From the NCBI GenBank assembly GCA_029550925.1, contig JAKPGL010000130.1, positions 40,821 to 104,820 on the forward strand: a stretch of 64,000 nucleotides of DNA, written 5' to 3'. Source of the DNA: Planctomycetota bacterium (lineage in GTDB: Bacteria > Planctomycetota > Planctomycetia > Pirellulales > Thermoguttaceae). Positions 32,248 to 50,873 of this stretch are shown piece by piece; position 1 is the first letter of the stretch; every line of letters starts with the position of its first letter. The position numbers and the translations under genes are program-made. The notes beneath the pieces are model-generated. The model searched no databases. It was not told the DNA's origin and saw only the letters and a program-made list of their open reading frames with translations.

Positions 32248-33108
32248 TTAGACGCCCAATTCTTTTCGGAGCCAGGCCAGGGTTTCTGCGTGTTGTCGGC
32301 TTGTTTCGGCCAGGGACTGGACCTGTTGCTGCAGCTCGGCCAATTGGCGGCGGAGGTCTTGCAGATCGGCCTGGAGAGAGGGCGAACCAGAAGGCGGGAA
32401 GGAGACCATTTCCCTCGGTTGGACGCCGTCGGCAACTCCTTCGGAGGTCGGGCTGGGCAACGAGCCGGTTGCCGGCGAGGAAAGCGATTCAGGCCGGATC
32501 GGCTGGACGGTCTGTTGATATTGCGCCTGGATCCGTTCCATTTCCCGCGGAGGATACAGGGCGTGGCCGACCACATGGCCTCGACCTTCGGGCGTGAGCG
32601 AAACAAGAAGCCCCTTCGCCTTGAGCGAAGCGAGCACTTGTCGGAGGGCGGCCAGATCGGCCAGCGGCTCCATACGGCTGGCATGGGCGCGGAGTTCGCC
32701 TTCGGTTTGCGGCCCGCGGAGCAAAAGTTCGGCCATGACCGCTGCTTCGACTTTATCGACGCCCAACCATTCGTAGAAGTAATGTCGATATTTGGGCACT
32801 CGGCCATAGCCTTCGACCAGCCCTACAGCGCCGATCGCCCGGAGCCGGTCCAAGGCGGCCTCTACGTCTTCAGGTTCCAGTTGCATGACGGGGGCCCGAT
32901 TGCTTTTCTGATTGGCCCCGGTCGTAACGGCGTTGAGCGAAAGCGGATACACATCGGGGGTGGTCTTAGCCTTTTCGACCAGCACGCCCAGGACCCGGCG
33001 TTCTACCGGTCCGATCGGCTGCCACCGGCGTGGGGCCGCCGCAGGTTCTGAACCATCCGGCCCAGAACCGGCTGGTGGATGGAGCGGCTGGTCCGAAAAA
33101 CTTGCCAT
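32248..33108 (-). CDS. YceH/DUF480 family protein with C-terminal coiled coil
   Basis: 286 residues. The DUF480 double winged-helix core is unmistakable: ERRVLGVLVEKAKTTPDVYPLSLNAV, GANQKSNRAPVM, AALDRLRAIGAV, VPKYRHYFYEWLGVD, AELLLRGPQTEGELRAHASRM. Its role is unknown; winged helices suggest DNA or protein binding. Unlike E. coli YceH (about 215 residues) this one has a Pro/Ser linker and a C-terminal coiled coil (LQADLQDLRRQL, VQSLAETSRQHAETLAW). AAGGAGG precedes the ATG. It follows the kinase-caspase gene by about 96 bases on the same strand and may be cotranscribed. Confidence 0.92.
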   Translation of the reverse strand: MASFSDQPLHPPAGSGPDGSEPAAAPRRWQPIGPVERRVLGVLVEKAKTTPDVYPLSLNAVTTGANQKSNRAPVMQLEPEDVEAALDRLRAIGAVGLVEGYGRVPKYRHYFYEWLGVDKVEAAVMAELLLRGPQTEGELRAHASRMEPLADLAALRQVLASLKAKGLLVSLTPEGRGHVVGHALYPPREMERIQAQYQQTVQPIRPESLSSPATGSLPSPTSEGVADGVQPREMVSFPPSGSPSLQADLQDLRRQLAELQQQVQSLAETSRQHAETLAWLRKELGV

Positions 33109-33204
33109 GGTTGTTCCTCCTTGGTTGAAAACTTCCTAACATTTCCGTTCAACCCTCGCCCTGGCGGGCGAGGTTCAGATGGCTTTCCGATACGGTAGAA
33201 ATGT

Positions 33205-36200
33205 TTAGTCCTTTTCCATGCTGGCCTGGATTTGTTGGGCGGAGAGGTCGAAGGGGAAGGCGGCATAGTGGGACAGTTGGCGGCGTTCGATCTTTAATCG
33301 GATTCGGGTGGCTTCATCGGTGTTGGGGTCGGCCATCTGTTGATCGAACTGTTGGACTGTGGAACGGGTTTTGGATCGGCCTTGTTCATAGGCTTGGATG
33401 GCCGAGGCGCCCCATTGGGCCGCTGCGGCGTCCAATTGGGGGAACAATTCGGGTTTGGGCCGCGAAGGCCCTTCGGGCGCCAGCTCGGCAAACTCCCGAA
33501 GCTGGCCGATCCAGGAGAGCATCCCCTGCCAATCTGCGGAAAGCGATTGGCCGGGTTTGGGTTTCGGCCCCGTTGTCAGCATCCCGATCAATTCTTCGAG
33601 GCCCCGGTTGTAGGATTGCCGCTCGAAAAACGTCCAAGCAATCGCCATGCGCGGCAGAGGCAGTTCGGAATGCTCCAGTTTCAGGCGTTCAAAATGTTGC
33701 TGGGCTTCCTCTCGGTCTTTGCGGTCTTTGGATTTCAGCAAACACAGGCCGTAGGCCAATTCCGGCTCCAGTTCACTGCCAGCCAACTTCTTGGCTTCCG
33801 AATAGGCCTGGCTGACGGCGTCCATGTCGATCTTCTCCTGTCGCACGAGCGAAAGTAACCGACGGATGGAGCGTTTGGCGTTTTCGGAAAGCCGGGGCGG
33901 CTCCAGATTGGGCAGAAACAGCTCCGGGGTTTGGGTCTTGGCCAATGCCTTGCTAGCTTCGGACATGGCGGCTTGCAAGAATTCCGAAAGTTCGGTCGCC
34001 TCCAGTTGGCCGTCCCGGTTCTTGTCCGCTTTGCCGGAAAATCCCTCCGCCAATGCGTAGGCAAAGACCGAATGGCCTTTGTCAGGCCAATAGTATCCCT
34101 TCTGGCCTTCTCGACAACTGGCAATGGCGGTTACCGTGCGGAGGATGCCTCGGGTTTGAGGCGTTTTGATCGTGCGGATCATTTCTGCGGTGGACGGCTG
34201 GTTCAGCCCATGGGCGGCCGTATCCTGCGAGCAGTCTAAAAGCAGCCATTTCTCTTTGGCCGAACATTTCTCCAATTCATCCACCAGCCATTGCAACGGC
34301 AAACCAGTAAGGGGAATCCGCCGGGAGTCGAAATTTTTGGGCGCCAGATATACCTTCCCTTCCGAATCCTTAAAGGCATGGCCGGCGAAATAGACGATCA
34401 CCGAACTGTCGGCCCCCGTCCGGTCCAAAAAACCAGGAATGCCCTGTTCCAGACGAACCAGATTCTCGTCCACCAGCAGTAAGACCTGTTCCGGGGGCAC
34501 GGCAAACCGGCGAACCAGAACATCGCGAAGATATTGCACATCCTGAGTGGGCCAGCGGAGCCCGGTCAACAATTTGTCTTCGTAATTTTGGACGCCGATC
34601 AAGATGGCCCACCGCTTTGGGTCCGGCGGCCGACGAGCGGCAATCTGTTTGGCCTCCGGCGTGCGCGCGGGATCGGGCGTATCGTGCTGGATATCGACAA
34701 TATCGCCGCGGCGCAGGTCGGTCCACTCGACCGGTTCGCCGCCCAGGGTGATCTTGCAATCGGGGCGAACCAGAAACTTTTTCTCTTTGCCGTCCACTTG
34801 GACATCCATCGTACGGGCGTCGTACTCGATCCGGACAATTGGCCCGCCCTCGCCGATGGTCCGATAGGCGTGGATGCGGAGGATTTGCAGATCATGATAG
34901 ACGGTGGCCTTATCGCCCGGCTGCAAATCGGCCGGGGTGAGCCGTCGCTCTTGAAGCACCGCCTGGTCGTTGAGCGTTACTTCGCAGTTGGGCGCGATGG
35001 GCAACGAAAGCACTTCCGAAGAGGCCGTTTCGCCTCGGTCGAGAGTCAAGATTTTCTTCTTCGGGTCATAATCCCGAACCACCCCCTCGAAGGAGACCAC
35101 CCGTTGGATGTCCAGTTGCGTAGCTTCCCGACCGGTTTCGGTCCCCCGATGTTTCACCACCACCCGGTCATCCACTCGCAAGTCGGCCAGTTGGACGGCG
35201 CGACCGTCGATCTCGGTTCGACCGTTGATGGTGATCTTCTTGTTTTGGCTGAGGTCCTGAGGAACTTGAATACAAAGGGGCGGAGTTCCCTCGGGACTGT
35301 TTTCAATGGCGAGCCAGAATTGGCCCAATTCCGGCTCCACCTTGGCCGCCACCCCGCGATGTTCCTCCGGGCGATAAATGTGGTATTCGGTGAATCGCCG
35401 TTTGGTTTCCACATCGTCGAGCACTTTGACGATCATTTCGTCGCCTTCGCGGAGATCGCGCAAGGTGGCGGCTTTTTCATTGATAAAAAAGCGATCGTAT
35501 CTGCCGACAGAGCGTTCCACCGCCCGCCCCTTTTGGTCTCCCTCCAAGTATTCTACCGAGATAAGATGTTCGTCCGAATAAACATGTCGAACCACCGCAC
35601 GGGTGGGCGGAGGCGGACCTTCCGGCGGCGGCGTGGGTCTGGGCAGAATCATCCAGATCGACAGCAAGAGCGATACCAATATCGCCGCAATCGCCCCGAT
35701 CCGAGTGAGCTTCTTTTGCCGGGCTTCGCGCTCCCGGGCGGCGATCTGTTCGGGCGTCTCCTCTGGCGGCGGCGGGGGCATGGCCACCAACCGAGGGTCG
35801 GTCCGCAAATCCCGCAGCGCCTCGGCCGCCGAATGATACCGACGTTGGGGGTCTTTGGTCGCCATCCGTTGGATGACGGCGGCCAAATCGGGCGGCACCC
35901 CTTCCAGGACCCGATGGATTTCCGGCAAATGCAAATCCGCCGCCGCATGCCACATCATCCAGGCGATCTGCGGGTCGCGGCCATAGGCGCTCAGACCGGG
36001 GAAAAGGTTCTCGAACTGCCGACCGCACATCAACTCGTAACAAACGAATCCTAACGAATACAAATCGCTGGCAGGACCGACCGGCCCGAACTGCGGATTG
36101 ATAAGCTCCGGGGCCATGTATTTGGTAGTACCTTTGAGCAGGCTGCCCTCTTCATTGGCGGCCCGCCGGGCCAGGCCAAAATCGCCCAACTTCACCCGCC

Positions 36201-36618
36201 CCTGAGCGTCAACCAGCAGATTGCTGGGTTTAATGTCCCCGTGAATAACCCCGCGAGAGTGCAAAAAGTCCAATGCACTCAAGCCACCTGCCAGCACAAT
36301 GCGAAGATAATCCAGATCGATCGGGCCGGCCTCCAACGCCTGTTTCAGGCTGCCCCGCATCAGCTCCAGGATCAGCCAGCCCCGGCTCCGGTCGATGTCG
36401 TAAATGGTCAGAATGTGCGGATGCTGGAGGTTGGCCAGTAGTTGCGCTTCCCGCCAGTACCGCTCCAGTTGCCGGGGGTCGATCAGATATTGCTGATGGA
36501 TCTGTTTGATGGCCACTTCCCGGCCAAGTTCTCGGTCCCTGGCCCGATAGACAATAGCAAAATCCCCGGCGGCGATGGTATCGACGATTTCATAACGGGC
36601 GGTCGCTGCCATGGACAT
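33205..36618 (-). CDS. Transmembrane Ser/Thr kinase fused to caspase-like (C14) domain
   Basis: 1137 residues. Residues about 9-272 are a Hanks kinase: lysine K38 in VAIKQI, HGDIKPSN (126-133, with HGD for HRD), DFG 146-148, APE 169-171. A Pro/charged linker leads to one membrane helix at about 308-325 (AIAAILVSLLLSIWMILP). Then come four beta-rich repeats (about 343-402, 423-491, 510-576, 593-646), each ending in an L-x-x-L-R/Q-x-G-D module. Residues about 668-885 are a C14 caspase fold with RWAILIGVQNYED, catalytic-type histidine H747 in VIVYFAGHAF and cysteine C795 in WLLLDCSQD. Inside it, D865-K-N867-R-D869-G-Q-L-E-A-T-E876 is a perfect EF-hand loop. A helical, possibly TPR-like C-terminal region follows. 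It lies downstream of the Tad genes on the same strand. Confidence 0.93.
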   Translation of the reverse strand: MSMAATARYEIVDTIAAGDFAIVYRARDRELGREVAIKQIHQQYLIDPRQLERYWREAQLLANLQHPHILTIYDIDRSRGWLILELMRGSLKQALEAGPIDLDYLRIVLAGGLSALDFLHSRGVIHGDIKPSNLLVDAQGRVKLGDFGLARRAANEEGSLLKGTTKYMAPELINPQFGPVGPASDLYSLGFVCYELMCGRQFENLFPGLSAYGRDPQIAWMMWHAAADLHLPEIHRVLEGVPPDLAAVIQRMATKDPQRRYHSAAEALRDLRTDPRLVAMPPPPPEETPEQIAAREREARQKKLTRIGAIAAILVSLLLSIWMILPRPTPPPEGPPPPTRAVVRHVYSDEHLISVEYLEGDQKGRAVERSVGRYDRFFINEKAATLRDLREGDEMIVKVLDDVETKRRFTEYHIYRPEEHRGVAAKVEPELGQFWLAIENSPEGTPPLCIQVPQDLSQNKKITINGRTEIDGRAVQLADLRVDDRVVVKHRGTETGREATQLDIQRVVSFEGVVRDYDPKKKILTLDRGETASSEVLSLPIAPNCEVTLNDQAVLQERRLTPADLQPGDKATVYHDLQILRIHAYRTIGEGGPIVRIEYDARTMDVQVDGKEKKFLVRPDCKITLGGEPVEWTDLRRGDIVDIQHDTPDPARTPEAKQIAARRPPDPKRWAILIGVQNYEDKLLTGLRWPTQDVQYLRDVLVRRFAVPPEQVLLLVDENLVRLEQGIPGFLDRTGADSSVIVYFAGHAFKDSEGKVYLAPKNFDSRRIPLTGLPLQWLVDELEKCSAKEKWLLLDCSQDTAAHGLNQPSTAEMIRTIKTPQTRGILRTVTAIASCREGQKGYYWPDKGHSVFAYALAEGFSGKADKNRDGQLEATELSEFLQAAMSEASKALAKTQTPELFLPNLEPPRLSENAKRSIRRLLSLVRQEKIDMDAVSQAYSEAKKLAGSELEPELAYGLCLLKSKDRKDREEAQQHFERLKLEHSELPLPRMAIAWTFFERQSYNRGLEELIGMLTTGPKPKPGQSLSADWQGMLSWIGQLREFAELAPEGPSRPKPELFPQLDAAAAQWGASAIQAYEQGRSKTRSTVQQFDQQMADPNTDEATRIRLKIERRQLSHYAAFPFDLSAQQIQASMEKD

Positions 36619-36767
36619 GTCCTTATGGAGTTCCTTGGAGAAGATTCACCTTCTTTGTTATGGTACCAGAAAGAGAGCTGCTTGCTCTAGGCCCCCAAAC
36701 CATCGAGGGAAAAACCGACAGGAAAACCTGTCCCTTCGAGAAGCTCCCGTGGTGGAATCCACGGACC

Positions 36768-37964
36768 TTACGGAGGACCGCTCAACAGGGTGATTAGACA
36801 TTTCTCCAACTCGCGATCTCGTTTGGGGCTGCCCGTCAGCCCACGGGCCGGGTCCAATCGCTCCGCCCGAAGCATATCCAAAACTCTCTGGTAGTATTGG
36901 CGTTCTTTGCGATAATCTCCCTGGGCGTAAGCGATCAAGGCTTCCCGAAGATAGATTTGATAGCGTTCCAATTCTTTGCCTTCCGGATTGCCAGTATATT
37001 CCGCCTCGATCTTCTGGCGAACTTCCCGCTTCTCTTGTTCCAACGAGGTGTTTTTGGGGGCGACATCCATAAGAATCAACACCACCGAAAGCCCCAGACT
37101 CAGACAGACGGCGGCCAACAGGAGAAAGGGATTCATGGAACGACTCTCTTGAGCCGCCGGTTGGTCTGCGTCGGTTTCTTTGAGCCGAAGTTCCGGTAAT
37201 TTGCCGTCGCTTCCTAAGGGCATGGTGGAAGGAGCGGCCTGGGTGGCGATGAATCGGGCCACCTTTCGGCCCGCCGCCCCAGAAGTGGGAAGGGTAGCCA
37301 CTACTCCCGCTCGGCCAGAACGCGCTGGCGGTGCGACTGGGGAGACAGTCGGGGAACCTTTTCCTGACGGCGGTGCGGGCGGCAAGCCAGCGGTCGTCCC
37401 CGGCGCCACAGCTCCTGGGGCGGGCGGGGGGACATTGGGCGGCGCCGGCGGCGGGCCCCCTGGTAACCCCGAAGGAGGAACGCTCGGCGGCGCCGGCGGC
37501 GGGCCTCCTGCTACCCTCATGCCCGGTGTAAGACCACCGGGGGGAGGCGGAGGAACCGAAGGGACGACTCCGCCTGGAAGCGGCGGCGAAGACGCCGTTC
37601 GGACCGGCGGCGCTCCGCTGCTCGGCGGGGCCGAACCGCCCAGCGGCGGCGGAGGCGGCGGCGAAGCAGGCAATGGTCCTCGCCCTGGAGCAACCGTCCC
37701 CGGGGGAAGCGGGCTGGACGACGCCGGAGGAACGCCTCCGGCGGTCGGAGACGGCAAACCCGCCGACGCCCCTGCCGCCACACCCGCGCTAACGCCCGGA
37801 TTGAGAGCGACAATCTCGGCAGGTTCTGGGCTGGGGTCTATTGGGGCGGTGCTGGGAACCCAAAACCGGCCCCCACACTGAGGGCAATGTGCGTAACTAT
37901 TGGCCATCTTGCGAGGCGCCAATAAATGCTGCCGACACCGTGGACATTGCAACTGGAAAGGCAT
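36768..37964 (-). CDS. Zinc-ribbon single-pass membrane protein with Pro-rich linker
   Basis: 398 residues. An N-terminal MJ0042/DUF-type zinc ribbon (CPRCRQHLL and CPQCGGRFWVP, spaced about 21 residues) is followed by about 200 residues dominated by Pro, Gly and Ala (PPPPPGG-type repeats), one membrane helix (PFLLLAAVCLSLGLSVVLIL), and a charged helical tail of about 90 residues (EQEKREVRQKIEAEY, DYRKERQYYQRVLDML). The same ribbon-linker-helix plan occurs in the interrupted protease at 51.8 kb. Function unknown; the ribbon would be cytoplasmic. It sits between TadC and the kinase-caspase gene on the same strand. Confidence 0.8.
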   Translation of the reverse strand: MPFQLQCPRCRQHLLAPRKMANSYAHCPQCGGRFWVPSTAPIDPSPEPAEIVALNPGVSAGVAAGASAGLPSPTAGGVPPASSSPLPPGTVAPGRGPLPASPPPPPPLGGSAPPSSGAPPVRTASSPPLPGGVVPSVPPPPPGGLTPGMRVAGGPPPAPPSVPPSGLPGGPPPAPPNVPPPAPGAVAPGTTAGLPPAPPSGKGSPTVSPVAPPARSGRAGVVATLPTSGAAGRKVARFIATQAAPSTMPLGSDGKLPELRLKETDADQPAAQESRSMNPFLLLAAVCLSLGLSVVLILMDVAPKNTSLEQEKREVRQKIEAEYTGNPEGKELERYQIYLREALIAYAQGDYRKERQYYQRVLDMLRAERLDPARGLTGSPKRDRELEKCLITLLSGPP

Positions 37965-38055
37965 GGATCACCTACCGTCAAAACGTTCTCAATCCTGGGT
38001 AGTCGCCGCCCTGTCGGGCTAACATTGCGGCTTTCGTTCTCCTTTTCCTATTGGC

Positions 38056-39000
38056 CTACATGGTTAACCCGAATTGCAGATAATTCATTAAAAATGGCCC
38101 GATGATGATCAGCACCGTGGCCACCATGATCAGCACACCAGGCAGCAGCATGTTGACGCCGGCTTCGCCGGCGACGGTTTCGGCCCGTTGGGTGCGTTTC
38201 AGTCGGAGCAGGTCCGCCTGGGTGCGGAAGATGTGGGCCAACGGCGTGCCTAGTTCTTCGCCCTGCAGAATAGCGCCGATGATGCTGGTGATTTCGTCGT
38301 CGCTGAGTCGATCCCGCATGGCCGAAAACGCCTCATATCGGGTTTTCCCCAGGTTCATATCCGTCAGGACTCGTCCGAACTCCTCGGCCACCGGATGTCC
38401 GTGAAACTCTTTGACCCCTTGGGTCAGGGCGTTGAGGAACGAGGCGCCGGCTTCCATGAGCAGGGTCAATAGGTCCAGCAAGAAGGGCATCCTGCGTTTG
38501 ATCATCAACAATCGCCATCGGGCGCGTGCGGCCAAGCGCCGACGCAAAAAATAGGCCGTCAGGATCGTCATCCCCGCCGCGGCCAAAAGGCCGGCCATCC
38601 CCAACGCATTGAAAAAGAAATAGCCATACAGCGGCGACAGGGCCAACGCAAACAGCTCGGCACGGGCCAGATATTCCTCGGCCAGCCAGAAGCGCGGCAA
38701 CCCGGCCGCCTGAATTTCTCGATGGATTTCTGGCAACGCCTCTCGGAAAGCGGCCCGATTGAAGGCCGCCAACAGTTGGATCAGCGGTTGGAAGACCCGA
38801 TAAAAAATGTCGATCCGCCGCAGTTCGTTGATGCGGGTTACGTCGTAGCGCCATTCTCTGTCTTGCGGCAGGTCTTCGGTGTGCAAGACCTGATAAAGCC
38901 AATAGATAAACACGGCGACGGCCAACCCCATCACCCCGCTCGCCGTGATCAACAACCCAGGGATGTCCGTTGCAATAAGCAGCGTTATCGTCGTTTCCAT
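38056..39000 (-). CDS. tadC: Tad pilus/type II secretion inner-membrane protein TadC
   Basis: 314 residues. Type II secretion system F-domain protein: membrane helices at the N-terminus (LLITASGVMGLAVAVFIYW), a central pair (YGYFFFNALGMAGLLAAAGMTIL), the conserved RMPFLLDLLTLLMEAGASFLNALTQGVKEF and GRVLTDMNLGKTRYEAFSAM, the QGEELGTPLAHIFRTQADLLRLKRTQRAE amphipathic segment, and C-terminal membrane helices (VLIMVATVLIIIGPFLMNYL). TadC and TadB form the inner-membrane platform acted on by the CpaF ATPase. It starts about 34 bases after the TadB stop. Confidence 0.92.
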   Translation of the reverse strand: METTITLLIATDIPGLLITASGVMGLAVAVFIYWLYQVLHTEDLPQDREWRYDVTRINELRRIDIFYRVFQPLIQLLAAFNRAAFREALPEIHREIQAAGLPRFWLAEEYLARAELFALALSPLYGYFFFNALGMAGLLAAAGMTILTAYFLRRRLAARARWRLLMIKRRMPFLLDLLTLLMEAGASFLNALTQGVKEFHGHPVAEEFGRVLTDMNLGKTRYEAFSAMRDRLSDDEITSIIGAILQGEELGTPLAHIFRTQADLLRLKRTQRAETVAGEAGVNMLLPGVLIMVATVLIIIGPFLMNYLQFGLTM

Positions 39001-39033
39001 GAAAGTCTCTTCAGGGATATTTTTTCCACATGC

Positions 39034-39882
39034 TCAAATATCCGGACTGAGAATCTTCCGGGCCCAAAAATAGGCCAGGATATTCAACAGCATGGCCGTC
39101 GCCAAAATGAATTGGCCGAAGGCCGTTACAAATAGCAGCCGGGTATTTTCCGGGTCCACAAAATAATACACCACCAAGACAAACACGGGCACAATGGCCA
39201 TATAGACGGCCGATTTGCGGGCCTGGGCGGTTTCCGACAGGACCTTTCGTTCCAGGCGTTGAAGTTCCAGAACCGATTGGGCGATCCGTTCGACGGTTTC
39301 GTTCAGCCGTCCGCCGCTTTCATGACTGGCCAACATGGCGGCGGCAAACAGGGCAAAGTTTTCGCTCTTGAGCCGTTCCTTCGCTTCCAATAGCGTTCGT
39401 TCCAATGGCTTGCCCAGTTTATACTCTCCGATAATCTGGTGAAATTCAGTGCTGATGGGTTTGGGAGATTGGGCCGCCAACATTTCCAGCGCTTGCGGCA
39501 ACGAAAGCCCCGCGCGAATCGCATTGGCCAGCGTAACCATGGCGTCGGCCAATTGGTCCTCGATCTTCTGACGCCGATACTCCGCCAGCCGACGAATCAC
39601 ATACCACGGCACGCCGATCAGCAGGACCGTAATCACGATCGCAAAAATCCAACTCTCTAGTACCAGCCAAAACCCAAAAAACGACGCGATCATCGCCGCC
39701 AACCAAAGCGTCAAATAGGTGCGCAATCGCCGGGTCGGGTACCGCAGGCGGGTGAGTTTGTCGGCCAAGTCCTCTTCCACGTAGCGGAACGCGGCGGCCG
39801 CATAATCTTGGCAGAACAAGCCCAACGCAGCCCCGGCCAACCCTATCATCAGCGTACCAAGCCACATCATCTCGTTGCCCAT
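39034..39882 (-). CDS. tadB: Tad pilus/type II secretion inner-membrane protein TadB
   Basis: 282 residues from ATG 39882; a TTG six codons upstream is the alternative. The F-domain is clear: membrane helices MWLGTLMIGLAGAALGLF and WLAAMIASFFGFWLVL, then QLADAMVTLANAIRAGLSLPQALEMLA, HQIIGEYKLGKPLERTLLEA, FALFAAAMLASHESGGRLNETVERIAQSVLE split over two helices, and RKSAVYMAIVPVFVLVVYYFV. It is the second platform protein. It follows the CpaF gene by about 150 bases and precedes TadC closely. Confidence 0.92.
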   Translation of the reverse strand: MGNEMMWLGTLMIGLAGAALGLFCQDYAAAAFRYVEEDLADKLTRLRYPTRRLRTYLTLWLAAMIASFFGFWLVLESWIFAIVITVLLIGVPWYVIRRLAEYRRQKIEDQLADAMVTLANAIRAGLSLPQALEMLAAQSPKPISTEFHQIIGEYKLGKPLERTLLEAKERLKSENFALFAAAMLASHESGGRLNETVERIAQSVLELQRLERKVLSETAQARKSAVYMAIVPVFVLVVYYFVDPENTRLLFVTAFGQFILATAMLLNILAYFWARKILSPDI

Positions 39883-40034
39883 AGGTTGCTCTCGCTCCAA
39901 AGGTATCCTACTGGGAAGATACGCAACGGTAGCTCCCCTCCAACGGATCGCGCCAAAATCGGCGGCTCGGAATCCCAGGCGGCAGCCATCGCACCAACTG
40001 CCTCCTCGGGTTTTGAGGAGGCAAAGGGACCGGT

Positions 40035-41981
40035 TTACCGGTTTGTGCGTCGGGGTTCGCCGCGAGCCGCCGGAGCGCCGTCGCCGCCGCCTCGTGTGCC
40101 GTACAAAAATTCAATGTCCAACAAGTCCTTTTCAATCAGGGAGTCGATAAACGTAGGCAAATAGCCCGTCGGCTGAAGCGAGACGCCGTTGCGGAAATTG
40201 AAAATATCGGTAAGCACAATTCGCTGCAATTGGGCGTCGTATCGGGTTACTTCGGAGACTTGGGTAACCGCCCGGCGTCCGCCCGGAAGCCGACTGAGAT
40301 GGACGATCACGTTCAAGGCCGAGGCGATCTGCCGATGGATGGCGGTTACCGGCAAATTGGCTCCCATGAGCATCAGCACCTCCAAACGCTCGATCACTTC
40401 TTCGGCGCTATTGGCGTGTACGGTGGTCATGGAGCCGTCGTGTCCGGTGTTCATCGCCTGGATCATATCGACGGCCTCGCCGCCGCGGCATTCGCCCACG
40501 ATGATCCGATCGGGCCGCATACGCAAGGAGTTGCGGACCAGATCGCGGATCGTATAGGCGCCCGTGCCTTCCACGTTGGGCGGCTTGGACTCCAGGGTAA
40601 CCACATGCTCCTGGTGCAACCGAAGCTCCGTGGTGTCCTCGATGGTGACGATCCGCTCTTTATAGGGAATAAAGCTGGAGAGAATGTTCAGCATGGTGGT
40701 CTTCCCGGAGCCGGTGCCGCCGCTTACTAAGATGTTCTTCCGGTCGATCACACAGGCCCGCAGGAATTGGGCGGCGGCCTCGGTGATGCTGCCCATTTCC
40801 ACCAGGTCGTCCATCGTCCACCGCTGCACCGGGAATTTTCGGATCGTCAGGCACGGCCCACGCACCGCAAGCGGCGGAATAATGGCGTTCACACGCGATC
40901 CGTCCGGAAGCCGCGCGTCCACCAAAGGCTGGCTCTTGTCGATGCGGCGTCCCACCTGGGCCACGATCCGCTCGATGATCGCCTCGGTAACTTTATCGGA
41001 AATGAAGCGTCGGCCGGACTTTTCAATCACCCCGTTCCGCTCCACATAAATCTGGTCGCTTTTGACGACCATGATTTCCGTAACCGTCGGCGCCCGGATC
41101 AAATCCTGCAACGGGCCGAACCCAAAGATCGTGTCCTTCAGGTCTTTTTTCAAAATCCGCAGAAGGATGTATTTCCGAAGTTCTTCGTGCAAATGGGGGC
41201 GAACCAGCGGGAAAAACTCGTGAAACCGTTCTTCCACCCGTTGGACCTGCTCGGTGGAATCCCGACATTCGTGCAGAGACAGCCGCTCCCGCAAAAACCG
41301 CAATAGCCCGTGCAATTCCGCCTCGCGTTCCGGCACCAGCATGGCGGGCACATCGAATTCGTTCGTAGCCAGGACGGCCAGATCGAAATACTGTTCCCGG
41401 CCTCCTTCCATGATCAGTTGATTCACCAGAAGGTCGCGCAACACCAGGCCGGCCAGCTCTTCCAAAATCGGAGCGTTCCCCTTGTTGAAAACGTCCAACT
41501 CCCGGCAGATGTCTTCGATGTTGTTTTCCAGCAGGAGGATGGCTTGGGTGTCGGCGGCGGCCCCAGCCTTTTTTTCAAATTCCATCAGGTCTAGCCGTTC
41601 GAGGAGTTTTTTGTGGATTCGCAGTTCCAGGTCGGCCAATTGGCTGCGAAGATGGGCCTCCAGCTCGGCCCGGGTAACCGAAGGCGGTTTTTCGGCCTCA
41701 AAGGTGAGCGTATAGGGCCAAATGCGCACCTTCACCCCCGGATCAAACGCCGCCGTCTGTCCGCCCAGTATCTCCTCCTCGCCCACCACGCAACTGTTCA
41801 GACCGACGTTCTCCAAATAGAGCCGACCGTCGTGGATCCGCACGACCGCATGACGACGGGAAACCAACGGACTGGGCAACACCACATGGTTCGTTGGGTC
41901 CCGACCGATCGTGATCTCATTGGTCTGGACCTCGACCATCGAGCGGCGACTTTCGTTGATCTTGTTGAACCAAATCTTCAT
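40035..41981 (-). CDS. cpaF: CpaF/TadA secretion ATPase with N-terminal FHA domain
   Basis: 648 residues. The first about 95 residues are a forkhead-associated domain: EITIGRDPTNHVVL, SRRHAVVRI and a terminal VRIWPYTLTFE strand, giving the GR, S-x-x-H and N phosphothreonine-binding signature. The rest is a complete type II/IV secretion ATPase: FGPLQDLIRAPTVTEIMV, RRIDKSQPLVDARLPDGSRVNA, Walker A GGTGSGKTTML (about residue 418), Asp-box IVTIEDTTELRL, Walker-B/His region RPDRIIVGECRGGEAVDMIQAMNTGHDGSMTTVHAN. It powers Tad pilus assembly or retraction. Start overlaps the CpaB stop (TCAT). An FHA fusion is uncommon in well-studied CpaF proteins. Confidence 0.95.
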   Translation of the reverse strand: MKIWFNKINESRRSMVEVQTNEITIGRDPTNHVVLPSPLVSRRHAVVRIHDGRLYLENVGLNSCVVGEEEILGGQTAAFDPGVKVRIWPYTLTFEAEKPPSVTRAELEAHLRSQLADLELRIHKKLLERLDLMEFEKKAGAAADTQAILLLENNIEDICRELDVFNKGNAPILEELAGLVLRDLLVNQLIMEGGREQYFDLAVLATNEFDVPAMLVPEREAELHGLLRFLRERLSLHECRDSTEQVQRVEERFHEFFPLVRPHLHEELRKYILLRILKKDLKDTIFGFGPLQDLIRAPTVTEIMVVKSDQIYVERNGVIEKSGRRFISDKVTEAIIERIVAQVGRRIDKSQPLVDARLPDGSRVNAIIPPLAVRGPCLTIRKFPVQRWTMDDLVEMGSITEAAAQFLRACVIDRKNILVSGGTGSGKTTMLNILSSFIPYKERIVTIEDTTELRLHQEHVVTLESKPPNVEGTGAYTIRDLVRNSLRMRPDRIIVGECRGGEAVDMIQAMNTGHDGSMTTVHANSAEEVIERLEVLMLMGANLPVTAIHRQIASALNVIVHLSRLPGGRRAVTQVSEVTRYDAQLQRIVLTDIFNFRNGVSLQPTGYLPTFIDSLIEKDLLDIEFLYGTRGGGDGAPAARGEPRRTNR

Positions 41982-42787
41982 GGCGCCTTCCCCGCCTCTT
42001 TCTTTTTAGAAGGACATAACATGACAAGCACGTTCCGGAAACCAGTCTGGTGCAAGAGGTTCACCAACGCTTTGCCTTTGGGTTCTAACTGGCCGTCTGG
42101 TTGGACCCGAACCACGACGCCAATAACGTTCTCATTGGCGGGCTGTTTGCCCCAGGCTTGCCAGACTTCCGGAGAACTCAGTCGATTGCCCAACGAAAGG
42201 ATCTTAAAAGGCCCCAGAATCTGCGGATCGCCTTTTCCGGATCGGACCGCCAGAGAAGAGACAGGTTTCGGCTGGGGCGACGCCGAACCTTCCTCTGCGG
42301 CGGAGTCGGACGAAGAACTGCTCGGCGCCATATAAGCGGGCGTGGGCCCTTCATACGAAATGGCAAACTCTACCTCGTTCCCAGGCGAAACCAAACTCGG
42401 CACAAAACTACTCGACGCCACCGGCACCCACACCAGTCGTTCGTCCGGCTGCAACGTCAGGTTAGGCGGCGGAGTTTTTAAGTCGTCCTTCAGTAACAGC
42501 GAACCTCCCGTCAACGTCCGACATACCGGACGCCCCACCACGCTGGAAGATGCCTCCCAGAGATACGCAAAATCATTCAAATTGCCGACGTTTCCTTTAG
42601 GGATATTAATGGGAACCAAGTTTTCTTCCGTGAGCTTATCGCCCGCATTCACCGTTACATCCGGCCGGATGCCGATAAATCTTACCAGCTCTAGTTCTTT
42701 GGACTTCTGAACCAAATAGGCATAGCTAAACAGCGCCCCGGCAATTCCCAACCCTAACGCCACTATCAACCCCTGAATTCCTTTCAT
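41978..42787 (-). CDS. cpaB: CpaB-like SAF-domain pilus assembly protein
   Basis: About 269 residues from ATG 42787. One N-terminal membrane helix (GLIVALGLGIAGALFSYAYL) is followed by a SAF domain in VNAGDKLTEENLVPINIPKG, and then a second beta region (LQPDERLVWVPVASSSFVPSLVSPGNEVEF), as in CpaB/RcpC, which lies in the periplasm and is thought to bind peptidoglycan or organise the secretin. The C-terminal part has a Ser-rich linker (SSSSSDSAAEEGSAS). The stop overlaps the CpaF start by four bases, proving tight coupling. A CpaC secretin is not in the window. Confidence 0.82.
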   Translation of the reverse strand: MKGIQGLIVALGLGIAGALFSYAYLVQKSKELELVRFIGIRPDVTVNAGDKLTEENLVPINIPKGNVGNLNDFAYLWEASSSVVGRPVCRTLTGGSLLLKDDLKTPPPNLTLQPDERLVWVPVASSSFVPSLVSPGNEVEFAISYEGPTPAYMAPSSSSSDSAAEEGSASPQPKPVSSLAVRSGKGDPQILGPFKILSLGNRLSSPEVWQAWGKQPANENVIGVVVRVQPDGQLEPKGKALVNLLHQTGFRNVLVMLCPSKKKEAGKAP

Positions 42788-42976
42788 ACGCTTTGCCTTT
42801 CCGAAAAACGAGAAACAAATCAACGCCCTAGAATCGATGCCCTAAAAGAAAACGGACTCTTTCGCCCTATGGATGCTGGATCGCAGTCCGCCTGGGCCAG
42901 GCAAACCAGATATTCTTTTGAGCAGATCGATTAGGATTTCTAAGGATTCCATAATTCCATGAACAAGGCGATGCGG

Positions 42977-44191
42977 TTAGGGCCCCGTCGCTGGGGTGGC
43001 AGCGGATGGGCCCTCCGCCCATATCCATATTAAACCCGTCCAAGTGTCGGCGGCGTCCGGTCCGAAGGAGATTTCCACGATTTTTTCCCTGGACGAGCCA
43101 GCCTGGGCGGCCTCTGGTTCAGACGCCCCAGGCCATAAGAACCGACTCCTCCATCGGACGCCCTGCTGCTGCCAAACGCCTAGCTGTCGGCCTCCATGAG
43201 TGCGAAAATAGGTTTCGTAAAAACTCTTCCAGGTTTCCGGCCGAGGAGGGCCTCGAAACAAGGTCAAAGCGGGGCCTTGAATCAGTCCTAAGGAGTACAT
43301 CAATGTACTCTCTGGAGGTATTGGTATGCCTTCCCCCACTCCCTGGGGGCCGCCTCCAACCGAGGAAACCGCTACCAAAGTATATAATGTCCACCGCCCC
43401 TCCCCGCTGGGAATCCCAAAACCCCAGCTTACCACGTTCAGGGGTTGCTGGGCAACCTCCGATTCCGAGGGGGAAGGCAGCGGGGGGGCCTTCTCCCCAG
43501 TTTTTCCTTTTGGATTCTCAGTTTTTGTTGGTAAAGGGATATTTGGTGTTAAGGCAGAAGACGCGGGGAAAGAGGGGTTTTTTTCTTCCTTTCTGGCTGG
43601 CTGGTTTTTTTCCTCAGAGGGGGGGGTAGAGAAATGATCTCTTTCTCGTACCCCCACCACAAGGGGAACGCTCTCATAGAATGCATACACAGCCCATCCC
43701 GTACCCTTGGCAACCGGCGCTCGGTCCTTCAGTCTCTCCAAAAATTGCCGCTGCTGGGCGCTGGGTTCTGGGCCGGAAGTTTGGCAGGCCGCGGTAGCCT
43801 GAGCGCACTCGGTCTTTAGCCGATCGAAGGCCCTTCGGGTGTCCCCTAAAATCACCTGCCGACGAAACTCCCAAGGGGCGTCGCCGAATCGAAATACATG
43901 GACCCGTTCCTCTTCGCCCAGCCCGGCCAAGGGGTCGGTCAGGAAGGCGGCCTTGCCGGACTCTGGAGTCTCTTCATACCACCACCGGAGCACCTGCCGA
44001 CCAAATCCCACACTGGCCGCCGCAATGATCGCACAGAGCAGTCCCCGGGTGGTCCACTGGGCGATCCTCGCCGCCAACCGACCCCATCCCAGCGGTTCCG
44101 CCGACTTTTCAGGGGTTTCCGCACGGGCAACTTCTGTCCGGTCCCCTTTTGGTTCCGTCGGCAGTGGCGGGTGATCCAAAAGATTGGCCAT
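42977..44191 (-). CDS. Single-pass membrane protein of unknown function
   Basis: 404 residues from MANLLDHPP with AAAGGG upstream; an ATG at 44233 is also possible. A charged cytoplasmic head and one membrane helix (GLLCAIIAAASVGFGRQVL) are followed by an extracytoplasmic region with LGEEERVHVFRFGDAPWEF, a Pro/Glu/Lys-rich linker, and a beta-rich C-terminal part with Trp/Gly (WTLYTLVAVSSVGGGPQG, WTGLIWIWAEG). I recognise no family. It is between the giant TPR gene and CpaB on the same strand, suggesting a link to the pilus or the envelope. Confidence 0.75.
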   Translation of the reverse strand: MANLLDHPPLPTEPKGDRTEVARAETPEKSAEPLGWGRLAARIAQWTTRGLLCAIIAAASVGFGRQVLRWWYEETPESGKAAFLTDPLAGLGEEERVHVFRFGDAPWEFRRQVILGDTRRAFDRLKTECAQATAACQTSGPEPSAQQRQFLERLKDRAPVAKGTGWAVYAFYESVPLVVGVRERDHFSTPPSEEKNQPARKEEKNPSFPASSALTPNIPLPTKTENPKGKTGEKAPPLPSPSESEVAQQPLNVVSWGFGIPSGEGRWTLYTLVAVSSVGGGPQGVGEGIPIPPESTLMYSLGLIQGPALTLFRGPPRPETWKSFYETYFRTHGGRQLGVWQQQGVRWRSRFLWPGASEPEAAQAGSSREKIVEISFGPDAADTWTGLIWIWAEGPSAATPATGP

Positions 44192-44252
44192 TTGTTTCGG
44201 CCCTTTCGATCCACGGTCCCACCGGGCCAACACCCGTTGCTATATAGATATT

Positions 44253-47200
44253 CTATCCGCCCAGGGCCTGAATACGCTGTTTGGCCAAGGGGACTTTATC
44301 GCTTTGTGGGTGTTTTTCGAGGAGTTCTTTATATTGGCCGACGGCTTTCTCTTTCATCCCAAGGACTTCAAAGCAACGGGCGGCCTCGTACATGGCGTCG
44401 GCCTGCCATTTCGGATAGCCGTACCCGGCAATGACCCGATAAAAACTCCGGATAGCTTCTTTGTGGTTTTTTTGGTCGAATTGGATTTCGCCGATCATAA
44501 ATTGGGCGCGAGCCGCTATCTCTTGGTTGCCCCCTTGGGCAACGACCGTTTCGTAGATTTTCATGGCTTCGTCGAGTCGGCCCATGTTCTGCAAGGCCCA
44601 GCCCTGTTCATAAAGGGCCTGGGGCAGATACGGGGAATTGGGGTGTTCGGCAGCGCACTGCTTGGCCAGTTGGAGGGCCTGATCCCATTGCTTCAACTGA
44701 GCGGCGGCCTGGGCCGAGTGCAACAGGGCCAATACGGGAAACTCCTTATTGGACGGTTTTTTGACCAGTCCATAGGCGGCGAGGGCTTCTTGCCATTTTT
44801 CTTGTTTAAACAGGCACTCGGCTTCCATGAAGGCGGCGTCGTCGGCCAATTCGCCCTGGGGCCAACCTTGGCGCTGAAAATGGAATGTCTGCGCCGCCTT
44901 GGCAAAGTCGTTCATTCGGAAATACGCCCATCCCAGTTTATAAGAGGCCTTTTCCGCCAGCGGCGAAGTGCCTGCTTTTTGGGCCGAGTTGTAATAGGCG
45001 CCGGCGGCGGCCAAAAAGTCGCCCTGTTGGTAGGCCGATTCCCCTTGGCGAAACAGGGCTTCGGCGGCCAACGGGCTATCAGGATGTTCCTTTGCCAATC
45101 GAGCGAATATCGCCGCCGATTCCTTCTCCTGGCCCGCCGACTGCAACGCCCACGCCCATTCATAGAGCACCTTATCTTTCGCCGAGTAGTTCGGATCGGC
45201 TTGGAGGAGTTTTTCAAAGGCGGCGGCGGCCTCTTGATGGCGTTTAAGCCCTGCCAAGCAAAGCCCCACGGCATACTGGGCGTCCGAGCGTTCGGCGGGC
45301 GTCGGGTTGGCTTGGAAGAGGGCCTGGATGTCTTCCAGAGCAGGAGCAAATTGCCCTTGCTGTTGGCGCGCCAAGCCTCGACCATACCGGGCGCGCACCG
45401 CCAACGGGTCCTGGGGATATTTTTCTAGGAACTGGTTGAAGGCCGCCTCCGCCTCGGCATACTGCCCCGCCATGAGCCGAGACCATCCCAATCCAAATAG
45501 CGCCGCCGAAGCGATCGGCCCCTGAGGTTGTTTCTCGATGGCCTTTTGGTACTCTCCGGCGGCTGGGCCATACTGCTTTTCTGCATAGAGATATTCGCCC
45601 AACCAGTAATGGGCGCGGTCCAGAATTCGGCTTTGGGGAAAATCGGTCAGCAGTTTTTGCAACGTCTGTTTGGCCGCCGGGTGTTTATCGGCCAACCAAT
45701 AGGCGTGGGCCAGGCAGAGGAGGGTTTCATCGGCCTGTCGCCACTGGGGATCGGCCTGGAGGGCGGCTTCCAATGCCTGGATCGCCGGGGCCGGTTGTTT
45801 GAGTTCCAACAGACAGGCCCCCAGGACATACTGCGCCTCGGCCAAAAGGGGCTTCTCTTGAATCTCTCGGACGAGGGGCTGAACCACACCGACGGATTCC
45901 TGGTACTTCTTGGCCAATAAGAGCGTCAACCCATACCGGACCTTCCATAGCAGCGGCGCTTTGGCCCCGGCCTTTGCTAATGCTTGGCTGTAGAACTTTT
46001 CCGCCTCCGCATACTGCTGGAGCTGAAGCTGGCTTTCGGCGGCCAGTTGTAGGACCTCGCCGGCTAACTCGTGTTGGGCGAATCGTTCGGAAAAAGTTTT
46101 TGCATAATTCAAGGCGGCCGGGAAATCGCCCACCTCCACCGCAGTAAAGGCGGCCATATAGAGCGCTTGCGGGGCCACGGTGTGCCGAGGATATTTGGCC
46201 GCCGCTGCCGCATATAACGCCGCCGATTCCTTTCGACGGTTCGGAATTTCATACAGGATGTCGGCCTGGTCCAGGGCCAATTGGGCCGCCCATTCACTTT
46301 GACCGGCCTGGGGCAAGGTCTTTTCCACTAGCGCCAAGGCTTCCGCGGCTTTGCCCTGTTTGAGCAGCGTCCGGGCAAGCCAATGGGCGCTTTCCAGCCC
46401 CGCCTCGCCGCCCACCGAAACCGACTTTTCCAACACCGCTTGCGCCTGAGCATACTGGCCGGCCAGGTAGAAACATCTGCCGCCCAACGCCAACGCCTGG
46501 CCAAGGTATTTCGATTGCGGGAATCGTTCTGGGAACTGCGAATAGAGAGCGGCGGCTTCCGGGTATTTTTTCTGTTGGGCCAACACGGCGGCCTGACGAA
46601 AGACGGCGTAATCGGCCAAAGGGAAATCCTTGGTCTGTGCGGCGGCGGCAAACCACTTTTCCGCCGCCTCGTATTGCCCCTGGGCAAACAGGGTTTCGCC
46701 CCTTCGGAGGGTGATCTCCGGGACCAGCGGGTGCCCTTTGAACCGTTGTAAAAAGAGGTCGTAGGTTTTTCCGGCGGCTTCGTGTTGATCCAACTCTTGT
46801 TGGGCTGCGCCCAAGGCGTATAAGGCGTCCGGAACCAGAGGGTGTTCTGGATAGTTGGCGGTCAGGGTTTGGTAACTTTCGGCGGCCTCTTTCTTTTGCC
46901 CCAAGGCGTAGAAGCATTCGCCGCGATAATAGAGGGCCTCGGCGGCTTGGGGCGATTTCGGATATTGGTCCAGATACCGGCGCAAGGTTTCCGCGGCGGC
47001 TTTGAGGAGTTCTGGTTTGCCGGCCCGGCCTGCCGTGTACTGGGCCAGCCCCAAAAACCGAAGCGACTCTTGGGCGATCTCCGCTTTAGGATGTTTTTGG
47101 AGCACCTGCTCAAAGGCGGCGATCGCCTCGGCGGGTTTCTCGAGCTTCAGATAGCAGACGCCCAGGTAATGCGTCGCCCGATCAGTGCGGGAATCGTTCG

Positions 47201-47498
47201 GATAGGCTTGGAGGAACTTGGTCCATTCTTCGGCGGCCAGGTCGAAAAGCCCGCGGTTTTGCATGGCCACGGCCGCTGCATACTGCCGAGTGGCCAGCTC
47301 CTCTCCGGCGCCTTGAGAGGAAGCCGGCGCCGTCGGCTGGGAAGCCGGCGCCGCCGCTTGAGCGGCCTGGACCTCAAGCCCCTCAAGGAAAAGAGATTCT
47401 GGGAAACCATCTTCCCACAGCGTCCCTGCCGCGCCTAACCAGCCTCCTAACCCAACTACCGCCGATCCTACCAGCCGCCGCCAAAAGGCTGTCTTCAT
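44253..47498 (-). CDS. Very large exported tetratricopeptide repeat protein
   Basis: 1081 residues from MKTAFWRRLVGSAVVGLGGW (AGAGGTG upstream). After the signal peptide and a Pro/Ala linker, the rest is almost wholly TPR/Sel1-like helix pairs, each about 34-40 residues, with the pattern W/LxxLGxxYxxxGxYxxAxxxFxxxLxxxPx (for example LGVCYLKLEKPAEAIAAFEQVLQKHPK split over the pair); I count about 25 repeats. Such periplasmic TPR scaffolds hold multiprotein machines, for example Tad accessory protein TadD or BamD/YbgF-like proteins. Its place just upstream of CpaB suggests a pilus scaffold, an inference. Confidence 0.88.
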   Translation of the reverse strand: MKTAFWRRLVGSAVVGLGGWLGAAGTLWEDGFPESLFLEGLEVQAAQAAAPASQPTAPASSQGAGEELATRQYAAAVAMQNRGLFDLAAEEWTKFLQAYPNDSRTDRATHYLGVCYLKLEKPAEAIAAFEQVLQKHPKAEIAQESLRFLGLAQYTAGRAGKPELLKAAAETLRRYLDQYPKSPQAAEALYYRGECFYALGQKKEAAESYQTLTANYPEHPLVPDALYALGAAQQELDQHEAAGKTYDLFLQRFKGHPLVPEITLRRGETLFAQGQYEAAEKWFAAAAQTKDFPLADYAVFRQAAVLAQQKKYPEAAALYSQFPERFPQSKYLGQALALGGRCFYLAGQYAQAQAVLEKSVSVGGEAGLESAHWLARTLLKQGKAAEALALVEKTLPQAGQSEWAAQLALDQADILYEIPNRRKESAALYAAAAAKYPRHTVAPQALYMAAFTAVEVGDFPAALNYAKTFSERFAQHELAGEVLQLAAESQLQLQQYAEAEKFYSQALAKAGAKAPLLWKVRYGLTLLLAKKYQESVGVVQPLVREIQEKPLLAEAQYVLGACLLELKQPAPAIQALEAALQADPQWRQADETLLCLAHAYWLADKHPAAKQTLQKLLTDFPQSRILDRAHYWLGEYLYAEKQYGPAAGEYQKAIEKQPQGPIASAALFGLGWSRLMAGQYAEAEAAFNQFLEKYPQDPLAVRARYGRGLARQQQGQFAPALEDIQALFQANPTPAERSDAQYAVGLCLAGLKRHQEAAAAFEKLLQADPNYSAKDKVLYEWAWALQSAGQEKESAAIFARLAKEHPDSPLAAEALFRQGESAYQQGDFLAAAGAYYNSAQKAGTSPLAEKASYKLGWAYFRMNDFAKAAQTFHFQRQGWPQGELADDAAFMEAECLFKQEKWQEALAAYGLVKKPSNKEFPVLALLHSAQAAAQLKQWDQALQLAKQCAAEHPNSPYLPQALYEQGWALQNMGRLDEAMKIYETVVAQGGNQEIAARAQFMIGEIQFDQKNHKEAIRSFYRVIAGYGYPKWQADAMYEAARCFEVLGMKEKAVGQYKELLEKHPQSDKVPLAKQRIQALGG

Positions 47499-47786
47499 GG
47501 CACGCACCTCTTCTGCAGAGTTCCGGAACCTATTCCTTATTATTTCCAGTTTCCGCCCCAATTACCAGTTGGCCTGCGGGCCGGTTCCGGAGAATCTTAT
47601 CTAAGAAGAGAAGAGTAGTCCGCTGCTTCCGATGGCCTCCAGCGGGCCACCATTCCCCCCGTCGGGGCCTTTATCCTTGGAGAAGAAAAGCAACGCGCAG
47701 CAAGATCGCTTTTTCCAGGGAAAAAGGGAACCTAGAAAAATGCGATTGGCAGTAGCGGAATGGAAAAAGGGACTTTTTGGTCCGTT

Positions 47787-49448: not shown

Positions 49449-50873
49449 CTACTGTTGCACATTGCATTGGGGTATGGCTTTGCGGAACTCGTCAATCCCC
49501 TGGCTGGTGACTTTGGTTCCTTGGACGAAGACCTGCCGGAGTTTTTTAGCCTCTTTCAATTGTTGCAGGCCGGCGTCGGTAATTTGGGTATTTATCAGCC
49601 AAAGGGAGACCAAGTTGGGCATTTTGGCTAAGTGCGCCAACCCGGCATCGGTAATCGGCGTATCGTTGAGCATGAGGGACTGAATCGGGCTTGCCTCGGC
49701 CAGCACCTTGGCGCCCTCGTCATTGAACTGCGTGCTGTTGAGCACCAGATGGGTCAATGTCCCGGCCTCCTGGAGCCTTTGGAAGCCCACGCCTCGGATC
49801 GAAGCACCCGTGAGGTCCACGTTCCTGAGATTTTTGCACTTGGCCAGATGGACCAGATGTTCGTCGGCCAGTTTGGTTTTTTGCAAGCTCAGTTGCATTA
49901 ACTGCGGCAGATCGGCCAGATGCACCAGCCCTGAGCCTTGCACCCCGGTTTCATTGAGCTGCAAATGCATCAGATTAGGAAACCGTTTCAGATGTTCCAG
50001 CCCGGCGTCGGTAATGGCAGTTCGGTTTAGGTTCAACATACGGAGGCTGGGCAACTCTTTGATCTGAGCCAACCCGGCGTCCGTCAGCCGAGTGTCCTCG
50101 AAGACGAGCGTTTGAAGGCGAGAGAGACCGGAAAGATGTTCGAGGGCCTCCGGCTGGAGTTGAAGGCCGCGCAGCACGAGCGCACTCAATTGGGGGCATT
50201 TTCGGAGCACTTTGAGTCCCGGCCCTCGAATCGGGCAATTGCTCACCTGGAGATTCACTAGCGTCGGCATTTCCTCCACGGAAACCAATCCGGCGTCGCT
50301 GACCGGGGCGTTGTCGAGCTGAAGACTCTGCAAGCCGGTCAATTCCCGGAGTAACGAAAGATCATCGCCGCCTTTCCAACCAGGCCCGATCTGCACCAGA
50401 TGGACCACCTGGCCGTTATGATGGACCGTAGCCCCCTGTTGTTGCAGACGGGCGATCAGACGCTGATAAATCCACGTCTTGTGCCACGCCAGCGCGTTCT
50501 GTGCCCGCCAAACCGCCGAGGGATTCGTGGAGGCGGCGATCTGTTTCAAGGCGGCCACCGCGTCGGACTCCAATTTGGGGTCGTCGGAGAAGGCGAATTG
50601 CATGAGCAATTGGATGGCCCGGCTGGTAACTTCCAGATTGCCTTTTTGGGCCGCCTCGACCAACGGGGGAATTGCCGCCGACTTGGCCTCCGTTAAGCCC
50701 CGCATCGCACGCTGTCGGACCTCAAACTGATCGCTGTTTAACTGGGCAATCCATTCGGCCAACGAGGGATTAGGCTGGGCCGATGGCTCGGAACTTGCCT
50801 CCCCTGCCGTCCGTTCCATGAGTATCCCGACGGCCAACAATGCGGCCAAACCTATTTCCCACGCCAGTTTCAT
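49449..50873 (-). CDS. Exported HEAT/leucine-rich repeat protein
   Basis: 474 residues. An N-terminal signal or anchor (LAWEIGLAALLAVGILM) is followed by HEAT-like helical pairs (LNSDQFEVRQRAMRGLTEAK, AAIPPLVEAAQKGNLEV) that begin with the widespread planctomycete DSDSFAVRE-like pattern, and then about twelve LRRs, mostly 24 residues (LTGLQSLQLDNAPVSDAGLV, MLNLNRTAITDAGLEHLKRF). The third TDAGL-type LRR protein in this window. Probably a periplasmic or surface binding scaffold; the ligand is unknown. Confidence 0.86.
   Translation of the reverse strand: MKLAWEIGLAALLAVGILMERTAGEASSEPSAQPNPSLAEWIAQLNSDQFEVRQRAMRGLTEAKSAAIPPLVEAAQKGNLEVTSRAIQLLMQFAFSDDPKLESDAVAALKQIAASTNPSAVWRAQNALAWHKTWIYQRLIARLQQQGATVHHNGQVVHLVQIGPGWKGGDDLSLLRELTGLQSLQLDNAPVSDAGLVSVEEMPTLVNLQVSNCPIRGPGLKVLRKCPQLSALVLRGLQLQPEALEHLSGLSRLQTLVFEDTRLTDAGLAQIKELPSLRMLNLNRTAITDAGLEHLKRFPNLMHLQLNETGVQGSGLVHLADLPQLMQLSLQKTKLADEHLVHLAKCKNLRNVDLTGASIRGVGFQRLQEAGTLTHLVLNSTQFNDEGAKVLAEASPIQSLMLNDTPITDAGLAHLAKMPNLVSLWLINTQITDAGLQQLKEAKKLRQVFVQGTKVTSQGIDEFRKAIPQCNVQQ

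Follow-up and report, generated by a model that had tools for sequence, protein, structure and literature searches.

The threonine-phosphorylation pathway of the T6SS, PpkA-Fha-PppA, places a membrane Hanks kinase and an FHA protein beside a secretion machine. CpaF motors that carry an FHA domain of their own are known as class III CpaF and occur mostly in betaproteobacteria (PMC12019362). Like the CpaF described here, they have an N-terminal FHA domain on the motor, followed by a helical region and an ATPase domain (PMC12019362). The Kil system of Myxococcus likewise has a Tad-like core, accompanied by an FHA-CpaF (KilF) and several FHA proteins; its authors proposed a signalling cascade by analogy with the T6SS, and the word kinase does not appear in the main text (PMC8460266). 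In the literature searched, no paper was found that names a kinase or a phosphothreonine read by FHA-CpaF motors, and none in the open literature searched described a planctomycete operon combining FHA, Tad and kinase genes. FHA-CpaF itself is already known, and the kinase-linked operon is what is added here.

Gene content of the run and its place in a Tad operon

The window, the whole 64-kb stretch of DNA that was analysed, belongs to a 4.9 Mb genome in 233 contigs whose close relatives are Thermoguttaceae (Planctomycetota). The initial annotation had described a run of nine genes on the minus strand. All nine ORFs were open and lay in the order it gave (Table 1), and its domain calls were backed by Pfam (T2SSE with FHA, two T2SSF proteins with E-values of 1e-14 and 5e-22, Pkinase with Peptidase_C14, TPR and DUF480). 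A CpaB-like gene, which it had not named, overlapped the CpaF gene by 4 bases and was co-located with it in relatives. In the window, the TIGR03177 match of this gene (E 6e-7) covered the N-terminal half and was below the family cut-off, which the gene at the corresponding position in L160 exceeded. The order U-CpaB-CpaF-TadB-TadC-X-kinase recurred across many genera, and the run therefore exceeds chance. Both of its ends were local, since TPR was joined to it only in the window's genus and the adjacency of YceH and the kinase was seen only in some Thermoguttaceae.

Table 1. Features of the minus-strand run, with positions in the window
Feature	Position	Strand	Evidence or remark
YceH (DUF480)	32248..33108	-	Pfam DUF480 9e-48; tail neighbour of kinase
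KC kinase-caspase	33205..36618	-	Pfam Pkinase 8e-47, C14 5e-10
LKGTTK codons, KC residues 161-166, kinase activation loop	36121..36138	-	T164 40/41, T165 41/41
X/ZnP	36768..37964	-	CxxC pairs + TM
TadC platform protein (T2SSF)	38056..39000	-	Pfam
TadB platform protein (T2SSF)	39034..39900	-	Pfam
FHA-CpaF	40035..41981	-	Pfam FHA 2.8e-11, T2SSE 1e-63
CpaB/RcpC-like	41978..42823	-	TIGR03177 6.1e-7
U, single-TM protein	42977..44233	-	alignment of homologues
giant TPR protein	44253..47561 (alternative bound 47498)	-	Pfam TPR

Protein U had no family match but was conserved, with one TM helix and two tandem domains (AlphaFold AF2 pLDDT 76), and a Foldseek search of its fold gave a weak Mog1/PsbP-like resemblance (best E 0.037). 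X/ZnP consisted of a zinc ribbon, a Pro/Gly-rich linker, a TM helix and a conserved C-terminus. In other lineages, Planctomycetales among them, the place between TadC and the kinase was taken by a protein with an FHA domain and a membrane helix. The zinc ribbon replaces this FHA domain in the window's clade, and the C-terminal part is still similar to that of the FHA-type X. A terminator-like stem lay between ZnP and KC, and such stems were not above chance in the region. YceH adjoined the kinase in several Thermoguttaceae family members only (L085, L137, L144). It was rejected as a component because this adjacency is sporadic, and it probably stands outside the pilus-kinase system.

Several other genes of the window were recorded. 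Two leucine-rich-repeat proteins, one with HEAT repeats, were encoded on the minus strand on either side of the run (27973-30786 and 49449-50873), and an LRR gene was also a neighbour of KC in L054 and L087. A second Ser/Thr kinase, at 7164-8063 (minus strand), was of the stand-alone type; it was 299 aa long and had the canonical HRD and DFG motifs. At 53857-55724 (minus strand), a DUF4276 protein and an AAA_21 ATPase overlapped by 4 bases, and PADLOC matched the pair to the candidate defence system HEC-01.

The complete operon was found in relatives (e.g. G009, G012, G149 and G098) as one same-strand run in the order cpaF2, flp, A24, tadE, tadG, tadE2, U, cpaB, FHA-cpaF, tadB, tadC, X and kinase, where cpaF2 encodes a short CpaF without FHA and tadE2 is a tadE-like gene. 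The first six of these genes, cpaF2 to tadE2, were located on contig C37 (L058) of the window's own genome and were followed by ExbB and ExbD. Pfam matches on C37 included Peptidase_A24 (3e-15), TadE (4e-6) and Tad (7e-8). A pilin candidate of 68–71 aa was encoded in relatives between cpaF2 and the A24 peptidase gene. The candidate on C37 was 68 aa long, was in the expected place and had a G/A...E5-like processing site by eye, without a Pfam Flp match. As the initial annotation had said, no secretin, pilin or CpaE was present within the window. The genome encoded five secretins elsewhere and none on the operon contigs C161 and C37, and no CpaE/TadZ ParA-like localiser was seen in the operon. 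The predicted products include components of a Tad pilus, namely the CpaF/TadA ATPase, TadB, TadC, prepilin peptidase, TadE/TadG and CpaB/RcpC.

Outside the window's genus, TPR adjoined ExbB in 18 of 19 relatives, with ExbD following in all but one short locus; loci L055, L058, L063 and L064 also bore on the placement of the TPR gene. In all three genus members tadE2 was adjacent to ExbB-ExbD, and TPR headed U-cpaB-cpaF in the window and preceded cpaB-cpaF in G001. The simplest reading of these gene orders is a single genus-level rearrangement with an unrelated TPR-ExbB-ExbD operon, with breakpoints between tadE2 and U and between TPR and ExbB. The half with the pilin candidate would then lie on another contig because this exchange cut the Tad operon between tadE2 and U. 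Since the giant TPR protein belongs to the TPR-ExbB-ExbD operon of relatives, it was rejected as a machine part, and the machine appears to be split rather than incomplete. The description of the machine as partial therefore held for the window, from which secretin, pilin and CpaE were missing, but not for the genome, where the run is one half of a complete operon and the half with the pilin candidate and the peptidase is on C37. Each operon half is now behind the upstream genes of the other (G000 C37 16339-17719 and window 44253-47561), which constitutes a natural promoter-swap case.

Co-inheritance and site states of the kinase and FHA-CpaF

In the order survey, full-length FHA-CpaF was detected in 63 of 397 genomes; 44 genomes had the close form, at an identity of at least about 64%. 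A search with the kinase domain detected KC orthologues in 43 of these 44 genomes versus 2 of the 353 others (Fisher 5e-54, ignoring phylogeny). In 25 genomes KC followed CpaF within a run on one strand; the simple gene finder left X or TadB/TadC uncalled in a few of these. Contig ends truncated the locus in 12 genomes, and the case of G020 was ambiguous. KC was missing from this position in five testable genomes (G040, G058, G084, G138 and G368), all of which encoded KC elsewhere, and in G138, G368, G040 and G084 KC was present though unlinked to FHA-CpaF. The order CpaF-TadB-TadC-X-kinase also occurred in other Planctomycetota classes (L160, L170, L172, L173), and in L161-L165 the kinase was near tadE/tadG instead. 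The kinase, predicted to span the membrane, is inherited with the FHA-CpaF pilus machine across much of the phylum.

The FHA-CpaF of the window was composed of an FHA domain (residues 23-82), a helical region and a T2SSE ATPase. The residues of the phosphothreonine site, R27, S41, R42, H44 and N62, were present in the window and invariant across clade A, the window's clade. At all 53 clade A loci with both genes read, an intact FHA site (R/S/R/H/N) was accompanied by the kinase residues K, D, K, N and D. In the sister clade, also within the Pirellulales (18 rows, monophyletic, bootstrap 99 / SH-aLRT 98), the SRxH motif of the FHA domain was lost. Every kinase-like gene identified as its partner there encoded a pseudokinase with at least one catalytic residue missing; some of these loci had active-type kinases nearby too, which were treated as unrelated. 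The lesions varied (HGK, HGA, HGT, HGE, HGN, HGR, or loss of both Lys and DFG). Joint loss is the simpler direction, because other-class sequences with active-type kinases fall outside both clades. The loss of the FHA site and the kinase residues is one event on the tree and hence a single observation, to which a more distant rhizobial case is added. Pseudokinase and degenerate FHA were retained in the Tad operon throughout L043, L106, L108, L044, L105 and other sister-clade loci; the pair suggests a scaffold that persisted after phosphorylation was lost.

The CpaF FHA domain of Planctomycetales was eroded (RSKQN, RGKQN, RAKQN) while most of the kinases were intact. An active kinase is thus not always paired with an intact CpaF FHA domain, and a universal coupling of FHA and kinase was weakened by this group. 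Several other-class CpaFs had A or N at the Ser position of the FHA site. Other classes also combined an active-type kinase with a second FHA protein in the place where the window's clade has the zinc-ribbon gene.

Architecture of the kinase and its far-side domain

KC consisted of a kinase domain (residues 9-268), a TM helix (307-325), a barrel-repeat region (about 330-650), a pseudocaspase (about 668-901) and a helical C-terminus. By hydropathy scan, from which the topology was derived, each of the 41 homologues was predicted to have a single membrane helix, at about 305-325. The catalytic Lys, Asp and Asn and the DFG motif of the kinase were likewise conserved in 41/41, the window included. 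In the activation loop, Thr164 was conserved in 40 and Thr165 in all 41 of the homologues, and the pair was altered in the pseudokinases. Because it is conserved in active KCs and altered in pseudokinases, Thr164/Thr165 is the best candidate phosphosite. In mycobacterial kinases, an FHA domain docks on the phosphothreonine of the activation loop. By sequence conservation, the Thr164-Thr165 pair is a candidate phosphothreonine ligand of the CpaF FHA domain.

The part of KC beyond the membrane (residues 330-1137) was modelled by AF2 with a pLDDT of 90, and Foldseek matched its caspase-like domain to the MALT1 paracaspase (1.6e-9). The canonical Cys was missing in 32 of the 41 homologues and the His in 16; both were present in six, one of them from a congener. 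The window's domain kept the His (GHA) and had D-C-S, in LLLDCSQD, where D-x-C was expected. Barrel repeats and the caspase-like domain formed the far side in clade A. Distant homologues had other domains there (Ig and FGE-sulfatase in L160, FGE-sulfatase in L044, Ig and TPR in L043 and L106), and the kinases of G040 and G058, of about 570 aa, had no caspase domain. A uniform C-terminus of KC was accordingly rejected, the far-side part being exchangeable. The caspase part is, as predicted from these sequences, a mostly dead, sensor-side pseudocaspase module beyond the TM helix and not a cell-death enzyme. The caspase response proposed in the initial annotation was not borne out, with the domain predicted to be extracytoplasmic, the Cys-His dyad usually missing and two relatives keeping the kinase after losing the domain.

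Proposed control of the Tad motor and comparison with known systems

We consider it probable that these genes form the second half of an operon for a Tad-type pilus, or for secretion, and that a co-inherited receptor kinase controls its motor. Because the motor has an FHA domain and the kinase is inherited with the machine, the pilus is probably switched by phosphorylation. In the proposed sequence of events, the outer part of KC would sense an envelope or contact signal, and KC would autophosphorylate, with Thr164/Thr165 as the best candidate, or phosphorylate a Tad protein. The resulting phosphothreonine would be bound by the FHA domain of CpaF; binding would recruit the hexameric motor to the platform formed by TadB/TadC, or re-set it there, and so switch pilus extension or secretion. 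The short second CpaF, without FHA, may be an unregulated partner motor. Phosphorylation control of a Tad machine had been suggested in the initial annotation, and this part gained strong comparative support from the conserved gene order, the co-inheritance, the intact sites and their joint loss in one sister clade; a lack of conserved gene order, named there as grounds for refutation, was not what the relatives showed. The link to a caspase response was dropped. From the comparisons made, kinase-to-FHA control of the Tad motor appears well supported but is not proven.

Alternatively, the CpaF FHA domain might read a phosphoprotein of another planctomycete kinase, or serve as a plain protein-protein contact, while KC is co-transcribed and acts in another process. 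Planctomycetes are rich in kinases, as the second one in the window (7164-8063) illustrates, and in Planctomycetales an eroded FHA domain stands next to an intact KC. KC is nevertheless co-inherited with this particular CpaF even where the two are unlinked, and the sister clade within the Pirellulales lost the FHA site along with the kinase residues, so that we regard this alternative as unlikely. It seems rather improbable that the operon encodes, in place of an adhesive pilus, a device for secretion or predation of the kind represented by Kil in Myxococcus. Such a device would fit the lack of a secretin in the operon, although the genome has five, and both KilF, an FHA-CpaF, and the wealth of FHA proteins in Kil (PMC8460266) are in its favour; Kil, however, comes with a short secretin of its own and without TadG (PMC8460266), whereas the operon here has a Flp-like pilin candidate, a prepilin peptidase, TadE and TadG. 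That KC links the Tad machine to a response by proteolysis or cell death, as initially suggested, is highly improbable. The caspase fold is real (Pfam C14, MALT1), the window retains the His, and Cys and His coexist in 6/41 homologues including a congener; but the canonical Cys is missing in the window and in most homologues (32/41), and the domain lies beyond a conserved TM helix, is absent from the kinases of G040 and G058 and is replaced by other domains in distant homologues.

Returning to control of the motor by KC, a broader form of this reading can be put forward only tentatively. A dedicated receptor-kinase pathway may gate the Tad motor across the Planctomycetota, leading from exchangeable far-side sensors (pseudocaspase, Ig/FGE-sulfatase, Ig/TPR) through a Hanks kinase to a phosphothreonine read by FHA on CpaF and on a second operon protein, and in one branch pseudokinase and degenerate FHA may now form a scaffold that works without phosphorylation. 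The locus offers one kinase, one reader and one candidate site in a single operon, and relatives lacking both are natural controls. A caspase-like domain in planctomycetes would also be given a non-death role.

Among the known systems, class III CpaF has been described without a kinase (PMC12019362), unlike the planctomycete motor with its co-inherited receptor kinase and second short CpaF, and the FHA part of the query matched no betaproteobacterial class III plasmid. In Kil the short secretin is linked and TadG is lacking (PMC8460266), whereas the planctomycete operon includes TadG and a pilin candidate and has no linked secretin. The Tad locus of Rhizobium plasmid pRL11 (NC_008384) shares the order of a pilin-sized gene, A24, TadE/G, Tad, CpaB, CpaF, TadB, TadC and an FHA protein, and a second CpaF-like ATPase, but its CpaF has no recognisable FHA domain and the stretch read contains no gene for a kinase. 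A nucleotide-cyclase gene lies alongside the two CpaF-like ATPases and the FHA protein there (L276, 2328-14521). Planctomycete metacaspases show low Cys-His conservation, at 64% (PMC3501461). They and the pseudo-orthocaspases have the caspase fold with an often lost Cys-His dyad in common with KC (PMC6426788, PMC3501461), where the domain instead lies beyond the membrane helix of a kinase encoded in a Tad operon. The T6SS pathway PpkA-Fha-PppA (see also PMC3224232) combines, as does this operon, a membrane Hanks kinase with an FHA protein, and by analogy the working principle is likely the same. The operon had neither T6SS genes nor a phosphatase, only its FHA part resembles TagH, and FHA is fused to the motor. 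If the proposed control is true, the kinase-FHA control known for the T6SS extends to the motors of type IV family pili.
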